Source of the DNA: a virus
Length of the DNA stretch: 24,883 bases
Reading direction: 5' to 3' (one strand)
IMG/VR virus record: IMGVR_UViG_3300008954_000257
Coordinates: 1 to 24,883 of that record
In this document: in pieces, positions 13,119-24,883 of the stretch
Position numbering within the stretch: position 1 is the stretch's first letter
Layout of the letters: each line of letters opens with the position of its first letter
The notes under the pieces: generated by a model
Databases searched by the model: none
What the model was told of the DNA's origin: nothing
Seen by the model: only the letters and a program-made list of their open reading frames with translations
Position numbers and translations under genes: made by a program

Positions 13119-14396
13119 ATGATAATAGAAAATAAGAATCAGTTATCTGATTTCTTAAAAGGTTATAGTTCTCAAAACAGTATTATCATTCCAATACAAA
13201 ACGATGAAAACAAACATCCTATACAAGATGGGTTATGTTTGCTTTATGTTCAGTTATGGGATGAGACAGAGTATATCTTGCCCTTTAATCATAGTGAAAC
13301 TCTCAATATAGACATTCCTGATTTAAATTCAAACACTACAAAATACACTTTAAATAAAAAACAATTATCTCATTTAATCTCAATCAACAATGTTGTTGAT
13401 ACTAATCTATTGACTTATGGTGAAGAAAACGTTCCGTTATCTTTAGAAGAAATCACTACGAATGCTCATAACTTCTTTCAGATGAAATATTATAAAAAAT
13501 CTGATATAAACAGAATTATTCCTGTATTGAAACATTTAGATTATTGTAGACAGGTAAGTAAAGTTATGAAAGATAAAATAGAAAAATATGGTGATACTGT
13601 CAATATGTCATACAATAATGAAGTACTTGACAATCTAACTTACATAGAATCAAATGGTATTAAGTCAGTTGAAGGTATGAAATATACAGAATACAATTTA
13701 TATACATCAACAGGCAGACCATCAAACAGATTTGGTGGCACTAATTTTGCTGCACTAAATAAAAAAGATGGTAGTAGAGAACAATTTGTAAGTAGATTTG
13801 GTGGTGATGGTGTTTTAGTAGAAATGGACTTTGATGCTTATCATTTAAGATTGATTGCAGACAAGATTGGTTACGAATTTCCTCAAGGTTCAGTACACGA
13901 ACATATGGCTAAGTTCTATGGTGTTGATTATGAAGAAGCTAAAAAACTTTCATTTCAATATTTATATGGTTATGTTCCTCCTGAAGTAACAGAAATCAAT
14001 CCATATTTTGAAAAAGTTAGTGAATATATTAGTCAATTATGGTATGAGTTTAAAGACAGAGAATTTATTGAGTCCGATATTTATATGAGAAAGATATTCA
14101 AATCTAATTTGAGTGAAATGAATGCAAATAAGTTGTTTAATTACACAATTCAACTTATGGAAACTGAAAACAATATGAGAGTGTTAAACAAACTAATACC
14201 TCAGATTGAAGAATACGATAGTAAGTTAGTGTTGTATTCTTATGATAGTTTTTTACTTGACTTTAATATGAAAGATGGTTTAGGTTATCTAAAAAAAGTA
14301 AAAGATGTTTTAGAGCAAGAAGGTAAATATCCAGTTAAAGTTAGTTGGGGTTTGAATTATCACGAGATGAAAGATATTACAAGGAAATTTGTATGA
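13119..14396 (+). CDS. Divergent family A (Pol I-like) DNA polymerase
   Basis: Template-directed DNA synthesis is the likely role. The C-terminal half carries the family A landmarks in order: STGRPSN at residues 197-203 (compare TGRLSS), motif A VEMDFDAYHLRLIAD with Asp237 in the metal-binding place, SVHEHMAKFYG matching the DIH region, motif B EEAKKLSFQYLYG with Lys275, Phe279 and Tyr283-Gly284, an NYTIQLMETENN helix matching the IQGTAAD region, and motif C LYSYDSFLLDF with Asp376. Departures are His in place of the motif A Glu, loss of the motif B Arg, and YDS instead of HDE. The N-terminal 120 residues (LLYVQLWDETEYILPF) recall a degraded 3'-5' exonuclease fold without catalytic acidic motifs. 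At 425 residues it is short. AAGG at 13109-13112 precedes ATG 13119. Its TGA overlaps the next ATG. Confidence 0.82.
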   Translation: MIIENKNQLSDFLKGYSSQNSIIIPIQNDENKHPIQDGLCLLYVQLWDETEYILPFNHSETLNIDIPDLNSNTTKYTLNKKQLSHLISINNVVDTNLLTYGEENVPLSLEEITTNAHNFFQMKYYKKSDINRIIPVLKHLDYCRQVSKVMKDKIEKYGDTVNMSYNNEVLDNLTYIESNGIKSVEGMKYTEYNLYTSTGRPSNRFGGTNFAALNKKDGSREQFVSRFGGDGVLVEMDFDAYHLRLIADKIGYEFPQGSVHEHMAKFYGVDYEEAKKLSFQYLYGYVPPEVTEINPYFEKVSEYISQLWYEFKDREFIESDIYMRKIFKSNLSEMNANKLFNYTIQLMETENNMRVLNKLIPQIEEYDSKLVLYSYDSFLLDFNMKDGLGYLKKVKDVLEQEGKYPVKVSWGLNYHEMKDITRKFV

Positions 14397-16453
14397 ACCA
14401 GAAAATGGATTTTGACGACATACTTATAGAATGGGGTTATAGAGTTCACAATGGTCAACCTAATCCAAAAGACACTAATCATTTGTACCACTTATCTCAA
14501 ATATTATATGAGAATGGGTGGCCTTATAACGTTGTTGAAGGTTTAGTGCAAAATTTACTTGAACAAGATTCTGAACGTGAAAAGTTGATGAAGAAAGTTA
14601 TCAAGTATAAAGACAAAGAAGGTAACGACAGAGAGATAACTGTAGGTGGTGCATTAAAACAAGGTGAAGAACACCCAGCTTATAAACAAGCTAAACAAAT
14701 GACGGATACTGGTGATAAACCTAAAGGTGATAAAGTAGACGAACCAAGTGATTTTGATAGAAACACTAATCAGAACAAAGATGTTGACCCAGACTACACA
14801 AGAGATAGTGGTGATGTTTCACAAGACACTAAAGTAGCAATAGAAAAACTGAATGATAAGAGATTTGGTGTAGCAGCAAAGACTGAAACTTCATTAAGAA
14901 AAGGTTACATAGGTCAGGTAGATGCTGACAATATGAAACAATTTCAATCTGAAATGGATGATTTTTTACAAGAACCAACAAAAGAAAAAGCAGAAACTTT
15001 AGTCGAAAAATATAAATTATCACAAAATCAAAATGGTAAAAAATTATATGTAGGTATAATAGCAGGTAATGGTAGAAAAATATTAGGTGAAGGTAATGAA
15101 AAAGGAACCCATCTTGTCAATAAACTAAGTGATGTACTGAATAAATTTGTACCTTTAAAAGAAAAGGGTGATGTACAAAGAAATGCACAAAATAAATTAC
15201 AAAGTGCTTCTAAACCAGAACTCAAAACAGTAAGAAAATCAGATGACCCAGGTGTTAAAAAATTATTTTCTAATCCACCATATAATAGATTAAAAGAAAG
15301 ATTTCATCAAGTTTTTGGACCAGTAGGTGAAGACGGTAATTTATTAAGACCTAGTAGTGAACACTCTGCATCTTACTTCAAACAATCTGTCGATGAAAAT
15401 TCATCTTTAGATAAAACTATTGAAGCTTTGAAAGAGTTAGAACAACAAGGCACAGCTTCACCAGAAGTTAGAAAAGCATTAGAAGACCATAAAAAAAGAA
15501 TGAATGACATATCAGAAAATTTTGATACTATGAGTCAAGAAGAAAGACAAAAACAAGTAGAACAAAGTTATTCAGATATGGCTAGAGAGATGCATAAAGC
15601 TGACCCTGATATTGCTAGAGGTTTAATGAAAAATATGGCTGAGATGGCTCTGTATGATACAGAACTAGCTGCCGGTGATGAAGTGTACTTACCTTCAGAC
15701 GGTTCATTCCCTTCAGCTGACAAGATGAGAGTTGATAGAGATGGTAAAGGTGTTGTTGAAAAAGTAGCAGGTGTTTCTGTAAAGTTTGGAAAAAACGGTG
15801 CTGTATATGGATTCCCAGGTGAATCTGCTCAATATCAAAAGTTTCATTCAGATGAAGATAAAAGAACCTATATGAGAAATAGAGTAGGTCATAAAGGTCA
15901 TGCTCTAGGTGTGAGGGATGACTTAGTTGATGATAAAGATAAGTTTGATAAAATGGTAGATGAAAGTGGTCTAAGTAAAGTCATTAAAAATTCAGAAGTA
16001 GTAAGAACTAAATTATCAGAAATCAGTAAACAAATTGATGAAGCTCGCAGTAAGATTGAAGATGAAAATGGTAAATATTCTATAAAAGATTTAGTAAGTA
16101 TTAGAAAAGAGTTAGAAGATTTAAATTCACAAATGAAAAGTGTATTAGAAGAAAATATAGATGCAAAAGAACTTGAAAATATTATGGGTAGGTCTAACGC
16201 AAGAGAATTTATGAAAGGTGCTTCTCAGTCATTAAATATAATCTCAATGGCTTCAGTATTAAATACATCAGATGGATTATCTGTTTTAGAACACAATCAT
16301 CAAACTATTGACAAAGATGGACTACATTCAGAAACAGACAAAGGTACACCTAATCTCAAAGACTGGAATTTTCAATTCAGAGCTTTCGATAGTAGAGGTG
16401 GTGGTTTACTATGTGGTTTTGTTGGTGGTGATTCACCACCTGGGGAAATATAA
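14393..16453 (+). CDS. Unidentified large protein with coiled-coil region, 686 residues
   Basis: ATG 14393 overlaps the polymerase stop (ATGA) and has AAGGA at 14380-14384. An upstream in-frame TTG at 14345 is not needed. The N-terminal 75 residues form a compact helical domain (DFDDILIEWGYRVHNGQPNP, then HLYHLSQILYENGW) that I have seen heading large proteins of marine myoviruses. Next come KEGNDREITVGGALKQGEEH and an acidic, Asn/Asp-rich linker (about 95-140). The middle is charged, and about residues 520-600 form a coiled coil. The C-terminus is Gly-rich (RGGGLLCGFVGGDSPPG). There are no enzyme motifs. It could be a virion component or a replication-linked scaffold; coupling to the polymerase gene suggests co-regulation, not a proven shared function. 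Confidence 0.75.
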   Translation: MNQKMDFDDILIEWGYRVHNGQPNPKDTNHLYHLSQILYENGWPYNVVEGLVQNLLEQDSEREKLMKKVIKYKDKEGNDREITVGGALKQGEEHPAYKQAKQMTDTGDKPKGDKVDEPSDFDRNTNQNKDVDPDYTRDSGDVSQDTKVAIEKLNDKRFGVAAKTETSLRKGYIGQVDADNMKQFQSEMDDFLQEPTKEKAETLVEKYKLSQNQNGKKLYVGIIAGNGRKILGEGNEKGTHLVNKLSDVLNKFVPLKEKGDVQRNAQNKLQSASKPELKTVRKSDDPGVKKLFSNPPYNRLKERFHQVFGPVGEDGNLLRPSSEHSASYFKQSVDENSSLDKTIEALKELEQQGTASPEVRKALEDHKKRMNDISENFDTMSQEERQKQVEQSYSDMAREMHKADPDIARGLMKNMAEMALYDTELAAGDEVYLPSDGSFPSADKMRVDRDGKGVVEKVAGVSVKFGKNGAVYGFPGESAQYQKFHSDEDKRTYMRNRVGHKGHALGVRDDLVDDKDKFDKMVDESGLSKVIKNSEVVRTKLSEISKQIDEARSKIEDENGKYSIKDLVSIRKELEDLNSQMKSVLEENIDAKELENIMGRSNAREFMKGASQSLNIISMASVLNTSDGLSVLEHNHQTIDKDGLHSETDKGTPNLKDWNFQFRAFDSRGGGLLCGFVGGDSPPGEI

Positions 16454-16860
16454 TGAGAACACAACTACTCTGTACATTTACTAAAAGAAATCATTTCAAA
16501 GAAACGATTGATGTTATCATTGCTTGTAACGAAATCGTGTTTGATAAAATTTATGTGTTTCAAAATGAAAATGACCATCATCAACTAATCTGTACTTATA
16601 ATGTAGAGTATGATGAAGATGCTATACAAGATGTACCAGATACAATTTCATTACATAGAAAGAAACAAAGTAATACACTTTATACAATCAATGCTCTGAA
16701 TGATTTAATTCGTGAATTGAATGGTGGTAAATTAGATAAGTCATTTCCAATAGATTGGAACAATTATAGAAACTCTTTACTGCTTACAAATGAATCGGGA
16801 CTCAATAAAATACCTACAAGAATTTACTCAATAGTAGATGTAAAAACTTGGAATATATAG
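16453..16860 (+). CDS. Hypothetical conserved-looking protein, 135 residues
   Basis: ATG 16453 overlaps the preceding TAA by one base, so it is probably translationally coupled. The protein starts MRTQLLCTFTKRNHFKETID, has FDKIYVFQNENDHHQLICTY, then ISLHRKKQSNTLYTINALND and SFPIDWNNYRNSLLLT. An alpha/beta fold of small size is likely. I recall similar unnamed proteins in marine T4-like phages near replication genes, but know no function. It lacks resemblance to T4 RegA, which also lies in this part of T4-like genomes. It is the last gene before the gp32 unit. Confidence 0.78.
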   Translation: MRTQLLCTFTKRNHFKETIDVIIACNEIVFDKIYVFQNENDHHQLICTYNVEYDEDAIQDVPDTISLHRKKQSNTLYTINALNDLIRELNGGKLDKSFPIDWNNYRNSLLLTNESGLNKIPTRIYSIVDVKTWNI

Positions 16861-16962: not shown

Positions 16963-17718
16963 ATGGATTTAAACGCAATCAAAAACCGTCTTAATCAACT
17001 TCAAGCAACAAATACAAGAACATCAAACTTATGGAAACCATCACCTGGTTCTCAGATAGTTAGAATTGTTCCGTATAAGTTCAATACAGATAATCCTTTT
17101 ATCGAGTTATATTTTCACTATGGCTTAGCTAATAAAAACTATCTATCACCGATATCTTTTGGAAGACCAGACCCGATTGAAGAGTTCGCACAGAAACTAA
17201 AATCAACTGGTTCAAAAGATGATTATCGTCTAGGTAAAAAAGTAGAAGCTAAAATGAGAACTTATGCTCCTGTTGTTGTTCGAGGTGAAGAATCACAGGG
17301 TGTAAGATTTTGGGGATTCGGTAAAACAGTTTATCAAGAATTACTTTCAATAATCGCTGACCCAGATTATGGTGATATTACAGATGCTGTTAGTGGTCGT
17401 GATATTGCTGTAGAGTTCAAAACAGCTGAAGAGACGGGTAAATCCTTTCCATCAACAACAATTAGGGTTAAACCTAATCAAACTCCAATTACAGAAGATG
17501 CATCGTTGTTAGAAACAATCAAAGAAACTCAGAAGAATATTACTGAGATTTATCAAGAGCGTTCGTATGAAGAACTAACAGAAGCTCTTAGTGAATATCT
17601 AAGTGGTACTTCAGAGGAAGAAGAACCAGTTACTGAAACTAAAGAAACGGTTTCTGAAACAAAATCTTATGATTCAAAGAAAACATCAGATGCATTTGAT
17701 GACTTATTCAATAGCTAA
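16963..17718 (+). CDS. Single-stranded DNA-binding protein (gp32-like)
   Basis: It coats ssDNA during replication and recombination and works with the recombinase and helicase encoded next. The N-terminus has a basic, helical segment like the T4 B domain (MDLNAIKNRLNQLQATNTRT) followed by WKPSPGSQIVRIVPYKFNTD. The core shows YFHYGLANKNYLSPISFGRP and RGEESQGVRFWGFGKTVYQE. The C-terminus is acidic and ends DAFDDLFNS, the usual partner-recruiting tail. The 251 residues contain no cysteine, so the zinc-binding ribbon of T4 gp32 is absent. AAGGA at 16952 precedes the ATG. It heads a block with uvsX, exonuclease and helicase. Confidence 0.92.
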   Translation: MDLNAIKNRLNQLQATNTRTSNLWKPSPGSQIVRIVPYKFNTDNPFIELYFHYGLANKNYLSPISFGRPDPIEEFAQKLKSTGSKDDYRLGKKVEAKMRTYAPVVVRGEESQGVRFWGFGKTVYQELLSIIADPDYGDITDAVSGRDIAVEFKTAEETGKSFPSTTIRVKPNQTPITEDASLLETIKETQKNITEIYQERSYEELTEALSEYLSGTSEEEEPVTETKETVSETKSYDSKKTSDAFDDLFNS

Positions 17719-17763: not shown

Positions 17764-17777
17764 AATTGGAGAAAAAT

Positions 17778-18872
17778 ATGTCTACAAGAGACGAATTAGC
17801 TGGTGTCTTAGCGGACACTTTAAATAAACAATTCAAGGATATGAAAGTTGCATATTTCTTGGATGGTACAGATACAACACCTACTGATATTAAAGATTTT
17901 GTATCTACTGGTTCGACAATGTTAGATTTAGCAATATCTAACAAACCCAATGGTGGTATAGCTGTTGGTAGAATTACTGAAATTAATGGTTTAGAATCAA
18001 GTGGTAAATCACTACTTGGAGCTCATACGTTAGCTGAAACTCAGAAAAAAGGTGGTGTAGCTGTTTATATAGATACTGAAACAGCAGTTAGCACAGAATT
18101 TCTATCTGCTATTGGTGTCGATGTAGAAAGTATGTTATATCTACATTTGGAAACTGTAGAAGATATTTTTGCAGCTATCGAAGAGATTGTTGCAAAAGTT
18201 CGTGAATCAGACCAAGATAGATTGGTTACAATCTTAGTTGATTCTCTTGCTGCTGCTTCTACGAAAGTCGAGATGGAAGCTGACTTCGATAAAGATGGTT
18301 GGGCTACATCAAAGGCAATCGTAATATCAAAAGCTATGAGAAAAATAACTCAGATGATTGGAAGAGAAAAGATAGCTCTTGTGTTCACAAATCAACTCAG
18401 ACAAAAACTTGGTGTTATGTTTGGTGACCCGTGGACAACAAGTGGTGGTAAAGCTCTTCCATTTCACGCCTCAACTCGTATTAGATTAAAGAATACCGGA
18501 CAGATTAAAGACAAGAAGAACAACAATATTGGTATAAAGATGAGAGCTCAAGTCATAAAAAACAGACTTGGTCCTCCTATGAGACATGCTGATTTTGAAT
18601 TGTACTTTGAAACTGGAATCGATGATTACGGTAGCTGGTTAAAAGTTATGAAAGAACATAAACTTGTAAAACAAGGTGGTGCTTGGTATACTATGAATGA
18701 CCATCAAGGTAATGAACTAAAGTTTCAGTCTAAAGATTGGAATGAACAATTAGAAGACGAAGAATTTAGGGAATATTGTTATAATATGATTTGTGATAAA
18801 ATCATTCTTAAATACGAAAAGAACTTTGGTATTGATGACGTGGTAGTAGAAGAGGAAATGAGTGAAGAATAA
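17778..18872 (+). CDS. RecA/UvsX-family recombinase
   Basis: This is the ATP-dependent strand-exchange protein for recombination-dependent replication and repair. Walker A is GLESSGKS at residues 71-78 and Walker B is LVTILVD ending at Asp155. Other RecA-core features are VYIDTETAV (about 97-105) and a KIALVFTNQLRQKLG segment containing the L2-type QxR region. I chose ATG 17778 because GGAG at 17767-17770 provides the ribosome binding site; the upstream in-frame TTG at 17766 overlaps that site. The 364 residues compare with 391 for T4 UvsX. The acidic C-terminus (VVEEEMSEE) is typical of RecA-like proteins. The next gene starts inside its last codons, so the two are coupled. Confidence 0.93.
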   Translation: MSTRDELAGVLADTLNKQFKDMKVAYFLDGTDTTPTDIKDFVSTGSTMLDLAISNKPNGGIAVGRITEINGLESSGKSLLGAHTLAETQKKGGVAVYIDTETAVSTEFLSAIGVDVESMLYLHLETVEDIFAAIEEIVAKVRESDQDRLVTILVDSLAAASTKVEMEADFDKDGWATSKAIVISKAMRKITQMIGREKIALVFTNQLRQKLGVMFGDPWTTSGGKALPFHASTRIRLKNTGQIKDKKNNNIGIKMRAQVIKNRLGPPMRHADFELYFETGIDDYGSWLKVMKEHKLVKQGGAWYTMNDHQGNELKFQSKDWNEQLEDEEFREYCYNMICDKIILKYEKNFGIDDVVVEEEMSEE

Positions 18873-19875
18873 GTATCTATCTATTTTTGATGAAATCAAG
18901 AAAAAAGGTGGTTCACTTGACGACGGCAAACCCGATGATAAAGTGCTAATAGTAGATGGCTTAAATACTTTTATAAGAGTATTTTCAGTTATACCAACTA
19001 CTAATGATGATGGAATTCACATTGGTGGAATAGTTGGTTTTCTACGAAGTTTGGGTTTTACAATTAATATGTTTAGTCCCACTCGTGTTATCATAGTATT
19101 TGATGGCAAGGGTGGGTCTAGTCGTCGCAGAAAACTATATCCAGAATATAAGAAGACTCGTAAGTCAAAATACAGAGTTAACAGGTCATATGATTTTGCT
19201 TCTCAAGAAGATGAGAAACAGAATATGGTAATGCAACTACAAAGAATTGTTGAGTATTTAGAAACATTACCTGTTACGGTTATGTCATATGACAACATAG
19301 AAGCTGATGATACTATTGGTTATCTATGTAGACAAGTTTTAACTGAATCTGAAATAACAGTTATGTCTACTGATAAAGATTTCCTTCAGTTAGCAAATGG
19401 TAGAATAAAAATATGGAGTCCTACTAAAAAGAAATTATATAATGAACAAGCTGTATTAGATGAATATGGTATTTCATCTCATAATTACATTTGGTACAGA
19501 GTATTAGATGGTGATAAATCAGATAATATATCTGGTGTTAGAGGTTTAGGTCTAAAAACTATTAAAAAAAAATTACCTTTTTTAGAAGAAAGTAGAATAG
19601 TTAATATAGACGAGGTATTATCAGAATTACCAGATTCAAAAGATGTTATAGAATTGAATTATAAACTAATGCAATTATCTGATGTAGATATTTCAGGTTC
19701 AACAAAAACAAAAATTGTAAATAGTGTAAGACAACCAATAAATAGGTTAATTAAATATAAATTTCAGAAAATGTTTTTAGAAGATAAAATGTGGTCCGCG
19801 TTACCTAACCTTAATAGTTGGTTATTAACTACATTTAATCAATTAAACAAATATGCTGAGAAGACACATGAATGA
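18862..19875 (+). CDS. 5'-3' exonuclease / flap endonuclease (T4 RNase H-like)
   Basis: It probably removes RNA primers and 5' flaps from lagging-strand fragments. The catalytic layout of the PIN/FEN family is complete: VLIVDGLN (Asp32), VIIVFDGKGGSSRRRKLYPE (Asp81 with the basic clamp, then YKKTRK), NIEADDTIGYL (Glu147, Asp149, Asp150), MSTDKDFLQL (Asp171, Asp173), LDGDKSDNISGV (Asp218, Asp221), and a helix-hairpin-helix GVRGLGLKT at 225-233. It uses a GTG start at 18862, preceded by AGAGG, and overlaps the end of the recombinase gene by 11 bases. Its length of 337 residues is close to T4 RNase H (305). Confidence 0.92.
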   Translation: MKNKYLSIFDEIKKKGGSLDDGKPDDKVLIVDGLNTFIRVFSVIPTTNDDGIHIGGIVGFLRSLGFTINMFSPTRVIIVFDGKGGSSRRRKLYPEYKKTRKSKYRVNRSYDFASQEDEKQNMVMQLQRIVEYLETLPVTVMSYDNIEADDTIGYLCRQVLTESEITVMSTDKDFLQLANGRIKIWSPTKKKLYNEQAVLDEYGISSHNYIWYRVLDGDKSDNISGVRGLGLKTIKKKLPFLEESRIVNIDEVLSELPDSKDVIELNYKLMQLSDVDISGSTKTKIVNSVRQPINRLIKYKFQKMFLEDKMWSALPNLNSWLLTTFNQLNKYAEKTHE

Positions 19876-21235
19876 AACACTAACACAATTTGGAACATCA
19901 TTTCAAGCTAAAATTATTGCATCACTATTACGTGATATGAAATTTCTACAGACTATTAATGATATTCTTCAACCAAATATGTTTGATTCAGATTCAAATA
20001 AGTGGTTAGTTAAAACCATACGTGATTATTATTATGAATATAAAAAACAACCTACACTTGAAGTTATAAAATATAAAATAGATGAGATAGATAATGATGT
20101 TTTAAAAGTTGGAGTTATAGATAAATTACGAGATGTTTGGAAACATATTGAAGCAACTGATTTAGAATTTGTTCAGGAGAGAACACTTGATTTTTGTAAG
20201 AATCAAACACTTAAAAATGCTATTTTAGATTCAGTAAACCTTTTAGAAAATAAAGATTATGACGGTATAAAGTCTATCATAGATGAAGCAATGAAAGCAG
20301 GTACGACACGGGATTTAGGTCACGATTATATTTTGTCATTAGAACATAGACTTGAACAATCAGCAAGAACAACGACACCAACACCTTGGGATATTATAAA
20401 TGAAATTATGGATGGTGGTCTCGGTCAAGGTGAACTTGGAGTCGTAGTCGCACCGGCCGGTATAGGTAAATCTTGGACATTACAAGCTATCGGCGCGGGA
20501 GCATTGAAACAAAACAAAACTGTAATACATTATACTCTTGAGTTAAATGAGAATTATGTTGGATTAAGATATGATAGTATTTTCACTGGTGTTACAACAG
20601 CAAATATTAAATATTATAAAAGTGAAGTCAAAGAAAAGTTAGAAAAACTTCCAGGTAAATTATTGATAAAGTATTTTGCTACTAAGTCAGCTAGTGTACA
20701 GACACTCGGAGCTCACTTAAAACAAATAGAATTGAGTGGGTTAAAACCTGACTTAGTACTTGTAGACTATGCTGATATAATAATGCCGACAGGACATTTT
20801 AGAGAAAAAAGACATGCACTTGGTAACATCTATGAAGATTTAAGAGGATTAGCTGGTGAATTAGAAGTTCCTATCTGGACTGCTTCACAGGCAAATCGTT
20901 CTGCTCTTGAAGAGGATGTGATTGGTGCTGATAAAGTAGCTGAAGATTATAGTAAAGTTATGACTGCTGATTTTGTTATGAGTATGAGTAGAAAAGTAGA
21001 AGACAAGATTGCTAATACAGGTAGATTTCACGTGATTAAAAATAGATTTGGTATTGATGGTGTAACTTATCCGTCTACGATAAATACTAATATTGGTCAA
21101 ATACAAATTTTTGAAGGTAGTAGTCAGTTCGGAAAAGATGCACAAAGTAAGATGAATAATAGTGATGAGTTCTTGAGAAAAGAGTTAGCGAACAAGTACA
21201 AAGATATGGAAAAAAAAGTTGAAGGATTTGAATAA
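19868..21235 (+). CDS. DnaB-family replicative helicase (gp41-like)
   Basis: This is a hexameric 5'-3' helicase that unwinds the fork. The N-terminal 150 residues form a helical domain. The RecA-like motor follows with GLGQGELGVVVAPAGIGKSW (Walker A, residues 195-202), HYTLELNENYVGLR, LVLVDYADII (Walker B, Asp300), TASQANRSALEED (Gln sensor) and a basic VIKNRFG segment near the arginine finger. I prefer ATG 19868 (GAGAAG upstream, overlapping the exonuclease stop) over ATG 19853, which lacks a binding site. At 455 residues it is close to T4 gp41 (475). No primase domain is fused and no primase gene is in this window. Confidence 0.92.
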   Translation: MNETLTQFGTSFQAKIIASLLRDMKFLQTINDILQPNMFDSDSNKWLVKTIRDYYYEYKKQPTLEVIKYKIDEIDNDVLKVGVIDKLRDVWKHIEATDLEFVQERTLDFCKNQTLKNAILDSVNLLENKDYDGIKSIIDEAMKAGTTRDLGHDYILSLEHRLEQSARTTTPTPWDIINEIMDGGLGQGELGVVVAPAGIGKSWTLQAIGAGALKQNKTVIHYTLELNENYVGLRYDSIFTGVTTANIKYYKSEVKEKLEKLPGKLLIKYFATKSASVQTLGAHLKQIELSGLKPDLVLVDYADIIMPTGHFREKRHALGNIYEDLRGLAGELEVPIWTASQANRSALEEDVIGADKVAEDYSKVMTADFVMSMSRKVEDKIANTGRFHVIKNRFGIDGVTYPSTINTNIGQIQIFEGSSQFGKDAQSKMNNSDEFLRKELANKYKDMEKKVEGFE

Positions 21236-21311: not shown

Positions 21312-24300
21312 ATGGAAAAATTTCAGTTATCAGAAAAGTTTATACATAAGTACAAAAGAAAAAAAGCACCTTTTGGGTTTAATGGTCTTGGTGAACTCGT
21401 TTATATGAGAACCTATTCAAGAATTAAAGAAGATGGAAAAAATGAAAGATGGTGGGAAACCGTTCAAAGGGTTGTAGAAGGAACATATTCAATGCAAATG
21501 AATTGGATTAGTTCTCATCAATTAGGTTGGAATCCTTGGCAAGCACAAAAGTCAGCACAAGAAATGTATGATAGAATGTTTAATATGAAGTTCTTACCAC
21601 CAGGTCGTGGTTTATGGGCTATGGGAACACCAATCACCGAAGAAAAGAAGTTATATGCAGCATTAAATAATTGTGCTTTTGTTTCTACTTCTACAATAAA
21701 AGACGATTATTCAAAACCATTTTGTTTCTTAATGGATGCATCAATGTTAGGAGTTGGTGTAGGTTTTGATACAAAAGGTGCAGGTGAGATTATAGTTAAA
21801 GGTGTAAATTGGGATAGAAATCAAGAAATGTTTACTATACCTGATACAAGAGAGGGTTGGGTAGAATCTCTCAGATTATTATTAGAAAGTTATTTTCATG
21901 GAACTGCACCTGTTGGATTTGATTATTCAGAGATAAGAGAAGCTGGAGAACCAATCAAAGGTTTTGGCGGAGTTAGTTCAGGACCTGACCCATTAAAAGA
22001 AGTACACGAAGATATTGTAAAAGTATTAGAAAATAATGTGGGTGAACCAATCACAGTAACTACAATCGTGGATATAATGAACCTAATTGGTAAATGTGTT
22101 GTTGCCGGTAATGTTAGAAGAACAGCGGAAATTGTGTTCGGTGATCCACATGATGAAGAATATTTAGATTTAAAGAATTATAAAGTAAATAAACACAGAG
22201 AAACTTATGGTTGGACTTCAAACAATTCGATATTTGCAGAACTTGGTATGGATTATACAGAAGTAGCAAAACGTATTGTGGATAATGGTGAGCCAGGTTT
22301 AGCGTGGTTAGACAATATGAGACATTATTCTCGTATGAAAAATGGTGGAGATGATAAAGACCATAGAGTTGCAGGCGGAAATCCTTGTATTGTTGGTGAA
22401 ACATTAGTAGCAGTAGCTGATGGTAGAAACGCGGTTCCAATTAAAGATTTAGTAGATACTCAATATCCAGTTTATTCGGCCGATGGAAATGGAAAAGTAG
22501 TTATCAAACAATCAATTAAAACTTGGAAAACAAAAGAAAATACAGAAGTATGGAAACTTACTTTGGATGATGGTTCTACTTTATTAGCAACACCGGATCA
22601 TAAAATTATGCTACGAAGTGGTGAATATAAAGAACTTAGAGATTTACAAAAAGATGAATCAGTATTTCCATTTAATAGTTTTAGTAATAAAGGTTATAGA
22701 AATATACGAGGTACTGGTAAAAGAGCGAGTGGTATAAGGCAGTATAGATTGATTACTGAAAATGAACTTGGTTATATGCCTAACGCCAAAGAGTATGCTA
22801 TTCATCATATAGATTTTGATAAGACAAATGATAGGTGGGATAATTTAGATGTTATGACTCAATCAGAACATAGTAGATTACATAGATTAGATAAGAATCC
22901 TATGCATAATCCAGAATATGTAGAAAAGATGAAAGAAACTACTCGTATTAACGGCGGCCGCCACGGTGACCGGAATAGTATGTACGGTAAGAAGCATAAA
23001 GATTCTACATTAAAATCTATTGGTAAAAAGTCAAAAGAAAATTGGGAAAATCAACGAGATTTTATGATTGAATCTATTAAAAATGGTATGACTGATGAAG
23101 TTAGACAATATATCTCAAACAAAAGAAAAGAAAGAACAGTATGGGTTGATTGGAATTGTCCAGTGTGTAATGAATATAAGACACTTACAGAATATCAAGC
23201 ATCCAAAAGAAAAACTTGTAGTTATTCTTGTTCCAATGTTAAAAGAGGAATGGTCAATCAAGGTATTTGGAATCACAAAGTTGTATCGGTTGAATTTTAT
23301 GGATATGAAGATGTTTATGATATGACTGTTGAAGATACACATAATTTTGGTGTGATAACGTCTACAAAAGACGACACATATTTAGATTCATCTGGTTTGT
23401 TTATCCATAATTGCCTAGAGCAAAGTTTGGAAAGCTACGAACTTTGCTGTCTTGTAGAAACATTTCCAAACAATCACGATGATTTTGAAGATTATAAAAG
23501 AACACTTAAATATGCGTATTTGTATGCAAAATCAGTAACACTCGGTAGAACACATTGGAGTGATACAAACAGAGTGATGTTAAGAAATCGTAGAATTGGA
23601 TGTAGTGTAAGCGGCGTTGCTCAGTTTATCACAAACAGAGGTTTAGATGAATTAAGAAATTGGTTGGAGAACGGATATGATGTTATCCAAGATTGGGATG
23701 AAATGTATTCAGATTGGTTTGCAATACCGAAGTCGAAAAAAACGACTTCAGTCAAACCAAGTGGAACTGTATCATTATTAGCTGGCGCGACACCAGGTTT
23801 ACATTATCCTGAGAGTAGATTTTATATAAGACGAATTAGACTATCTAAACATTCAGAATTATTAGAACCACTAAAGAAAGCAGGTTACAAAATAGAACCA
23901 ACATTTGGTTCAGAAGATACAACAATGGTTGTTGAAGTTCCAGTAGATGTAGGAGAGGGAATTAGAACAGCATCTGAATTATCTATTTGGGAACAATTCT
24001 CATTGGCATCATTTATGCAAAGACATTGGGCAGACAATCAAGTAAGTTGTACGGTTACATTTGACCCTGAAACTGAGGGAAATCAAATAACAAACGTATT
24101 AAATTATTTTCAGTATCATTTAAAAGGTATTTCACTATTACCAAGACTCGATAGTGGTGCATATCCACAAATGCCATATGAAGCTATAGATGAAAAAGAG
24201 TATAATAAACAAGTTAAGAAACTTGGTAGACTTACATTCGGTGTAATCAAAAATGAAGAAGCAGAAATCGACCGTTTTTGTAATAACGATAGCTGCGAGG

Positions 24301-24347
24301 TAGTTCCTGCTACAGGAGATAATGATGACCAAGAATATGCTAATTAA
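21312..24347 (+). CDS. nrdJ: Class II (adenosylcobalamin-dependent) ribonucleotide reductase, intein-containing precursor
   Basis: After splicing the enzyme reduces ribonucleotides to deoxyribonucleotides using a cobalamin-generated thiyl radical. Extein landmarks fit the monomeric Lactobacillus-type enzyme: FLPPGRGLWAMGTP, NNCAFVSTS (Cys121, redox pair), GGNP directly joined after splicing to CLEQSLESYELCCLVETF, and SVKPSGTVSLLAGATPG. Cys701 (radical site) and Cys712 (redox pair) are 11 residues apart, as are Cys408 and Cys419 in that enzyme. The C-terminus has FCNNDSCEVV, matching the C-x4-C reductant relay. The exteins total 669 residues, a little shorter than the bacterial enzyme (739). 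GGGAG at 21297 precedes ATG 21312. It needs host cobalamin and no partner subunit. Confidence 0.95.
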   Translation: MEKFQLSEKFIHKYKRKKAPFGFNGLGELVYMRTYSRIKEDGKNERWWETVQRVVEGTYSMQMNWISSHQLGWNPWQAQKSAQEMYDRMFNMKFLPPGRGLWAMGTPITEEKKLYAALNNCAFVSTSTIKDDYSKPFCFLMDASMLGVGVGFDTKGAGEIIVKGVNWDRNQEMFTIPDTREGWVESLRLLLESYFHGTAPVGFDYSEIREAGEPIKGFGGVSSGPDPLKEVHEDIVKVLENNVGEPITVTTIVDIMNLIGKCVVAGNVRRTAEIVFGDPHDEEYLDLKNYKVNKHRETYGWTSNNSIFAELGMDYTEVAKRIVDNGEPGLAWLDNMRHYSRMKNGGDDKDHRVAGGNPCIVGETLVAVADGRNAVPIKDLVDTQYPVYSADGNGKVVIKQSIKTWKTKENTEVWKLTLDDGSTLLATPDHKIMLRSGEYKELRDLQKDESVFPFNSFSNKGYRNIRGTGKRASGIRQYRLITENELGYMPNAKEYAIHHIDFDKTNDRWDNLDVMTQSEHSRLHRLDKNPMHNPEYVEKMKETTRINGGRHGDRNSMYGKKHKDSTLKSIGKKSKENWENQRDFMIESIKNGMTDEVRQYISNKRKERTVWVDWNCPVCNEYKTLTEYQASKRKTCSYSCSNVKRGMVNQGIWNHKVVSVEFYGYEDVYDMTVEDTHNFGVITSTKDDTYLDSSGLFIHNCLEQSLESYELCCLVETFPNNHDDFEDYKRTLKYAYLYAKSVTLGRTHWSDTNRVMLRNRRIGCSVSGVAQFITNRGLDELRNWLENGYDVIQDWDEMYSDWFAIPKSKKTTSVKPSGTVSLLAGATPGLHYPESRFYIRRIRLSKHSELLEPLKKAGYKIEPTFGSEDTTMVVEVPVDVGEGIRTASELSIWEQFSLASFMQRHWADNQVSCTVTFDPETEGNQITNVLNYFQYHLKGISLLPRLDSGAYPQMPYEAIDEKEYNKQVKKLGRLTFGVIKNEEAEIDRFCNNDSCEVVPATGDNDDQEYAN
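22386..23411 (+). mobile_element. Intein with HNH homing endonuclease in the reductase gene
   Basis: The element is 342 residues. It starts CIVGETLVAVADGRNAVPIK (block A, Cys1), has block B LLATPDHKIML (TxxH, His72), block F YDMTVEDTHNFGVI and ends SSGLFIHN, with Asn342 followed by extein Cys. All splicing residues are present. The endonuclease part contains an HNH motif, AIHHIDFDKTNDRWDNLDV then QSEHSRLH (about residues 138-166), NUMOD3-like segments (NPMHNPEYVE, NSMYGKKHKDS) and a Cys pair set C-x2-C (258-261) and C-x3-C (278-282) suggesting a zinc ribbon. It sits between Pro and the catalytic Cys, an invariant site that escapes loss by mutation. The endonuclease appears intact, so the intein may still be mobile. 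Confidence 0.93.
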
Positions 24348-24402: not shown

Positions 24403-24431
24403 TTAACTAAAACAAAATGAGGAGAACGTTT

Positions 24432-24883
24432 ATGAATAAACGCAATCTAATCTCATTAGTAATGACCATGCTAATGCCAATGTTCATTTATGGACAAAGT
24501 GTTAGTGGTACAGTTGCTGATGAGAACGGCAATCCATTACCTGGAGCAAATGTAGTTGTAGAAGGAACTGATTTAGGTGCAGCTTCTTTGGAAGATGGTA
24601 CTTATTCGATTAAAATCGGAGAAGGTTCTTACACACTTACAGCTTCTGTTATTGGATACGCATCGTCTGCTAAATCTATTGATGTTAGTGGTGATGTAAC
24701 TCTCAACTTTGGACTAGTAGTTTCAGCAGTTGAGATGTCCGCACTTGAAGTTCTTGCTTCAAGAGCTGATGAAAAAACACCTGTTGCATACACGACAGTT
24801 AGTAAAGAAGAAATGGAACTTCGTCTTGGTAGTCAAGACATTCCAATGGCTTTGAATACTACACCAAGTGTATATGCAACTCA
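24432..24883 (+). CDS. TonB-dependent outer-membrane receptor, N-terminal part (cut by window end)
   Basis: ATG 24432 has a strong GAGGAG site at 24419-24424. The visible 150 residues start with a signal peptide (about 1-21, MNKRNLISLVMTMLMPMFIY, cleavage near GQS), followed by a carboxypeptidase-regulatory-like beta domain at about 22-100 (SGTVADENGNPLPGANVVVE, GYASSAKSIDVSG), a linker with a possible TonB-box region (ALEVLASRADE) and the start of the plug domain (EKTPVAYTTVSKEEM, DIPMALNTTPSVYAT). Such proteins import bulky substrates across the outer membrane using TonB. This layout is typical of Bacteroidetes and Marinimicrobia. It is unusual in a phage, looks less AT-rich than its neighbours, and may be a host-derived gene. 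The barrel is beyond the window, so substrate and intactness cannot be judged. Confidence 0.9.
   Translation, partial: MNKRNLISLVMTMLMPMFIYGQSVSGTVADENGNPLPGANVVVEGTDLGAASLEDGTYSIKIGEGSYTLTASVIGYASSAKSIDVSGDVTLNFGLVVSAVEMSALEVLASRADEKTPVAYTTVSKEEMELRLGSQDIPMALNTTPSVYAT

Follow-up and report, generated by a model that had tools for sequence, protein, structure and literature searches.

The locus

The window analysed here is the whole of IMG/VR virus record IMGVR_UViG_3300008954_000257, a fragment of 24,883 bases. It carries a gene for a 425-aa protein followed by a set of T4-type replication genes (Table 1). A sequence-only reading had described the product as a highly divergent family A DNA polymerase, and its coordinates, frame and residue numbers (D237, D376, K275, F279, Y283-G284) proved exact.

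Table 1. Polymerase gene, predicted domains and motifs, and neighbouring genes (window positions, or residues of the 425-aa protein where marked aa)
Feature	Position	Strand	Remarks
divPolA1-type family A DNA polymerase (predicted)	13119..14396	+	425 aa; translated in this frame
Exonuclease-like domain, predicted inactivated	aa ~1-130
Thumb remnant (predicted)	aa ~136-180
Palm and fingers (predicted)	aa ~181-425
Approximate site of the thumb deletion	13659..13703	+	15-residue linker, IESNG (aa 176-180) to TSTGRP (aa 196-201); ~120 residues in E. coli Pol I
Motif A, D237-F-D-A-Y-H242	13827..13844	+	Pol I counterpart D705-Y-S-Q-I-E710; all 43 homologues have D237 and H242
Motif B, Y271-EEAK275-KLSF279-QYLY283-G284	13929..13970	+	R754 replaced by Y271; K, F, Y and G kept
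Motif C, Y375-D376-S377	14241..14249	+	HDE in Pol I; position 377 is S or A
Variable ORF between polymerase and d2	14345..16453	+	no family match; listed TTG start inside the polymerase gene
d2, 135-aa partner candidate	16453..16860	+	ferredoxin-like predicted fold; linked to the polymerase
gp32-like ssDNA-binding protein	16963..17718	+	PF08804, 4.7e-13
UvsX/RecA recombinase	17766..18872	+
5'-3' exonuclease, T4 RNase H type	18862..19875	+	PF02739, 1.7e-33
DnaB-like replicative helicase (gp41)	19853..21235	+

Profile matches place gp32, UvsX, the exonuclease and gp41 in this order beside the polymerase, as had been proposed. The related marine loci share the order polymerase, variable ORF, d2, gp32, UvsX, exonuclease, gp41 and ribonucleotide reductase, much of which is also retained in Flavobacterium phage vB_FspM_immuto (hereafter immuto), Mel-JY01 and LR756508. 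The variable ORF evolves fast and differs in length among relatives. The TTG listed as its start falls within the polymerase gene, giving an overlap of 52 bases, so that the true start is probably a downstream ATG.

Some observations concern the flanks of the block. The relative G006 differs from the window in having a thymidylate synthase gene (L183:1665-2354; PHROGs 8.6e-53) inserted directly upstream of the polymerase gene. The ribonucleotide reductase ORF of the window (21312-24347) encodes 1011 aa and its G006 homologue 668 aa; the longer product contains an apparent intein of ~300 aa or more (NPC/IVGETLV... to ...LFIHN/CLEQ, with slashes at the junctions), including an HNH-like homing endonuclease segment. 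Further on, a TonB-dependent-receptor-like ORF (24417-24883; SusC/RagA N-terminus, 5e-14) runs off the window end. In related T4-like contigs (L207:944-3751; L210:1015-3816) the corresponding place, which has ribonucleotide reductase on one side and gp43 on the other, is taken by a full ORF of 933-935 aa that includes CarboxypepD_reg and TonB Plug domains. A receptor-like outer membrane gene is unusual in a phage replication region.

Homology to DNA polymerase I

Searches of Pfam, NCBIfam and PHROGs gave no confident match for the 425-aa protein. Its best PHROGs match (E 0.0016) is of unknown function, the PHROGs DNA polymerase profile reached only E 0.057, and phmmer against PDB sequences returned only Taq polymerase (E 0.05). 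The Pfam model PF00476 did not match at its gathering score. However, the immuto homologue lies above that cut-off (42.7 bits vs 34.3), which links the clade to the PF00476 family; the window sequence is too divergent for the model.

In a profile-profile comparison by hhalign of 20 homologues with 12 family A polymerases, a probability of 97.5% and an E-value of 6.5e-12 were obtained, and all three motifs (A, B, C) fell into register. In E. coli numbering, D237 pairs with D705, H242 with E710, Y271 with R754, K275 with K758, F279 with F762, Y283/G284 with Y766/G767, Y375-D376-S377 with H881-D882-E883, and R200 with R668; the same register makes N845 and Q849 the equivalents of N341 and Q345. 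The alignment thus bears out the departures noted earlier from the sequence, namely a His for the motif A Glu, a missing motif B Arg and YDS in motif C.

An AlphaFold2 model built from thirty aligned sequences has a mean pLDDT of 86.9 and a pTM of 0.85. Its top Foldseek match is the Klenow fragment (E 3.7e-16), and VIA-align superposes residues 1-417 of the model on residues 302-875 of the Bst Pol I chain (Z 26.8, rmsd 4.0, 383 residues). The top 50 structural matches listed are without exception DNA polymerases. In a separate structural search the first matches were viral PolA predictions. Neither of the outcomes that were to refute the sequence-only reading was seen: a palm fold is predicted, and D237 and D376 pair with the metal-site aspartates D705 and D882. 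We conclude that the homology to Pol I is real and that the predicted Pol I fold extends over nearly the full length. The resemblance to the E. coli, Bst and Taq enzymes runs along the whole chain (Z 24-27) at 15-20% identity, the spacing between motifs A and B and between motifs B and C being shorter in the phage protein.

Thumb deletion and loss of exonuclease acids

A feature overlooked in the sequence-only reading is the state of the thumb, which in Pol I grips duplex DNA. The distance from the start of IESNG to the start of TGR is 22 residues in the 425-aa protein (176 to 198) vs 126 from IERNG to TGR in E. coli Pol I (540 to 666), so that, to judge from these anchors, ~104 thumb residues are missing.

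The absence of a proofreading domain with catalytic acids had also been claimed. The acids are indeed lost; an exonuclease-like domain is nevertheless present. VIA-align matches aa 1 to ~130 with the exonuclease domain of Pol I, and the anchors YILPFNH and VDTNL align with YIPVAHD and FDTML of Pol I. In the family alignment, a conserved DxE is missing where Pol I has FDTET, as is an aspartate where it has NLKYD, these positions being placed by sequence anchors rather than by superposed coordinates. The domain is thus predicted to be retained in an inactivated form.

Conservation of the active site

Residues R200, D237, K275, F279, Y283, G284, Q345 and D376 are invariant in the 43 aligned homologues, and N341 is kept in 42 of them, with one Ser. 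The set includes immuto gp001, Mel-JY01 and LR756508, which are 27-35% identical to the window protein, and overall identity falls to ~28% in the set. The departures from Pol I are equally fixed: all 43 have H242 for E710, Y271 for R754 and Y375 for H881, and position 377 (E883 in Pol I) is always S or A. In Pol I, mutagenesis shows E710, R754 and the glutamate of HDE to be important. Pairwise dN/dS of the polymerase gene is 0.10-0.17 (NG86; for the most distant pairs dS approaches saturation), and the gene is therefore under purifying selection.

The divPolA1 family and its spread

Such polymerases have been described before. The family name divPolA1 was given in Virol J 2024;21:200 (PMC11348598) on the basis of immuto and 13 other phages. 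According to that article, the palm of these proteins is intact, the thumb truncated and the exonuclease inactivated; they occur second to a regular polymerase in a conserved replication neighbourhood, and they are viewed there too as active polymerases with a lost exonuclease. In the survey that it reports, few phages have two DNA polymerases. In our literature search the name divPolA1 occurred only in this article and its preprint, and biochemistry on divPolA1 was not found.

The window protein is a further member. It matches the founder, immuto gp001, by tblastn with E 1e-55, 91% coverage and 32% identity, and shares with it the palm catalytic residues, the thumb truncation, the loss of exonuclease acids and the position upstream of the same replication genes; a regular polymerase is encoded in immuto and in relatives of the window. 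The two differ only in sequence, gp001 also being without the short C-terminal extension (MKDITEKF-type) of the window protein. Of the published members we used immuto for comparison; LR796625 and MK892584 are two further published divPolA1 genomes. The divPolA2 proteins of Rheinheimera phage Barba18A and relatives, compared here through their description in PMC11348598, are likewise second, thumbless family A polymerases beside a family B polymerase, but have an unrelated N-terminal domain and a variable gene neighbourhood.

In a tree of palm sequences, all short copies form one clade (100/100 support) on a long stem of 1.87 changes per site; the root is a midpoint root and the deep order is unresolved. 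The window copy is monophyletic with the immuto founder. The full-length PolA of immuto, gp199, falls outside, with other PolAs, and an origin of divPolA1 by duplication of that gene is unsupported. A scan of viral contigs, with patterns built on one protein, yielded 251 tblastn-confirmed relatives, the best 80 of which were kept. The family thus extends well beyond the 14 genomes published. The invariant substitutions, the wide marine spread, the linkage to d2 and the DnaG-type primases of relatives are apparently new with respect to the text of PMC11348598.

A second polymerase and a primase in relatives

T4-like phages are expected to replicate with gp43, a family B enzyme and thus of a different polymerase family from the window gene. 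The relatives were searched for a family B gp43 and a primase. Of 17 related marine records, 9 gave a match to PF00136 (family B), as did the complete genome of Mel-JY01 and LR756508 (484 kb). The marine and Mel-JY01 PolBs have intact motifs A (DLDITSMYPS) and C (YIDTDS), and the exonuclease I motif was recognised in most marine ones; the LR756508 ORF examined showed no motif C. In G006, PolB lies just downstream of the same replication block, whose last gene is ribonucleotide reductase. Instead of PolB, immuto has a separate 777-aa PolA (gp199). No PolB was found in G002 (101 kb) and G004 (88 kb), both fragments, and no second polymerase in the window, where absence is uninformative for the whole phage. 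Three relatives encode a DnaG-type primase of ~313 aa, namely G002, immuto (gp091) and, by a weak match, Mel-JY01.

Pfam clamp models detected no clamps in related phages, although PHROGs profiles identify a processivity factor as well as a clamp loader in the relative G005. The idea that the polymerase tail and the gp43 tail might both bind gp45 is kept only as a weak lead: marine gp43 ends in ...(S/T)(I/M/L)ERFF and the window protein type in ...MKDITEKF(V/I), a slight likeness confined to I/M and Phe at similar spacing. The LR756508 copy ends in MDDLGF, the immuto and Mel-JY01 copies are without tail, and some members end in Leu.

The linked 135-aa protein

Among 50,697 phage records, d2 and the polymerase occur in exactly the same six, which represent three independent lineages. 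In IMG/VR, where 28 loci of d2 have over 2.2 kb of upstream sequence, the polymerase is present in 27, the exception having only 2.6 kb upstream; conversely, d2 is found at every compared polymerase locus with more than ~2.4 kb downstream. Of the two proteins, d2 is the more conserved. No family in Pfam, PHROGs or NCBIfam matches it with confidence. Its model (pLDDT 90.2) has a ferredoxin-like N-terminus, and the fold search, with a best Z of 5.9 and a Foldseek E of 0.14, returned no relative beyond this generic arrangement.

Possible roles of divPolA1

We propose, with a probability of about 60%, that divPolA1 is an accessory DNA polymerase, active but of low processivity and without proofreading, for gap filling or for recombination intermediates. 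It would be a catalytically competent, thumbless second polymerase in a recombination and replication module, beside gp32, UvsX, the 5'-3' exonuclease and gp41. A separate gp43-type family B polymerase would copy the bulk of the genome, and divPolA1 would carry out short synthesis, filling gaps after primer removal or extending intermediates made by UvsX, possibly past damage. The DNA grip of the thumb may be replaced by that of gp32, of the linked 135-aa protein or of other replisome proteins. In favour of this proposal are the predicted fold, the metal, primer and nucleotide residues, the loss of exonuclease acids, the thumb deletion, purifying selection, the linkage and the second polymerase of relatives, from which we infer activity, substrate, partner and role.

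Three roles had been considered in the sequence-only reading: a replicative enzyme, a specialised translesion or repair enzyme, and a repurposed fold. That the protein stands in for gp43 as the replicative polymerase could be suspected, since the gene heads the replication block and the window has no other polymerase. Relatives with the same gene order, however, encode an intact family B polymerase, in G006 just past the end of the block, and a replicative enzyme would here have to work without proofreading and without a thumb; we regard this role as extremely improbable. A specialised or repair function is the best remaining of the three, and a repurposed fold is less likely, the metal, primer and template residues checked being invariant or nearly so. 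Alternatively, the protein might be a scaffold with little or no catalytic activity, keeping the Pol I fold for primer-template binding or replisome organisation; some replicative polymerases do contain inactive polymerase halves. In favour of a scaffold, E710, R754, H881 and E883 have given way to fixed His, Tyr, Tyr and Ser/Ala, the thumb is gone and the exonuclease domain is inactivated; the changes at E710, R754 and E883 and the loss of the thumb also count against the accessory polymerase proposed above. Site conservation alone is no proof of catalysis. Yet a scaffold would need neither the metal aspartates nor the O-helix Lys, Phe and Tyr, R200, N341 and Q345, all fixed or nearly so at such low identity, and we consider it unlikely.

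It is also doubtful that divPolA1 is dedicated to translesion synthesis or to relaxed substrates, that is, damaged templates or ribonucleotides, the latter because the steric-gate Glu is His. The lack of proofreading, the altered sugar-gate and triphosphate-binding positions and the coexistence of a high-fidelity polymerase would fit, but no lesion-specific feature was identified in the polymerase, and loss of R754 predicts weak binding of any nucleotide. A Ser in motif C and a sugar gate other than Glu recall single-subunit RNA polymerases, such as that of T7, which belongs to the same superfamily and has HDS as motif C. A primase or small RNA polymerase is nevertheless very improbable: the DnaG-type primases of three relatives weaken a priming role, and every one of the top structural matches listed is a DNA polymerase. 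More speculatively, and in our view with little likelihood, divPolA1 and the linked 135-aa protein might form a two-part enzyme for UvsX-driven, recombination-dependent replication, in which the small protein takes the place of the lost thumb and E710H, R754Y and HDE-to-YDS alter substrate choice towards tolerance of ribonucleotides or lesions.

In marine T4-like phages divPolA1 probably matters, and its fixed departures from Pol I, together with the small protein linked to it, provide testable handles on a thumbless, apparently non-proofreading family A polymerase that would work alongside gp43.
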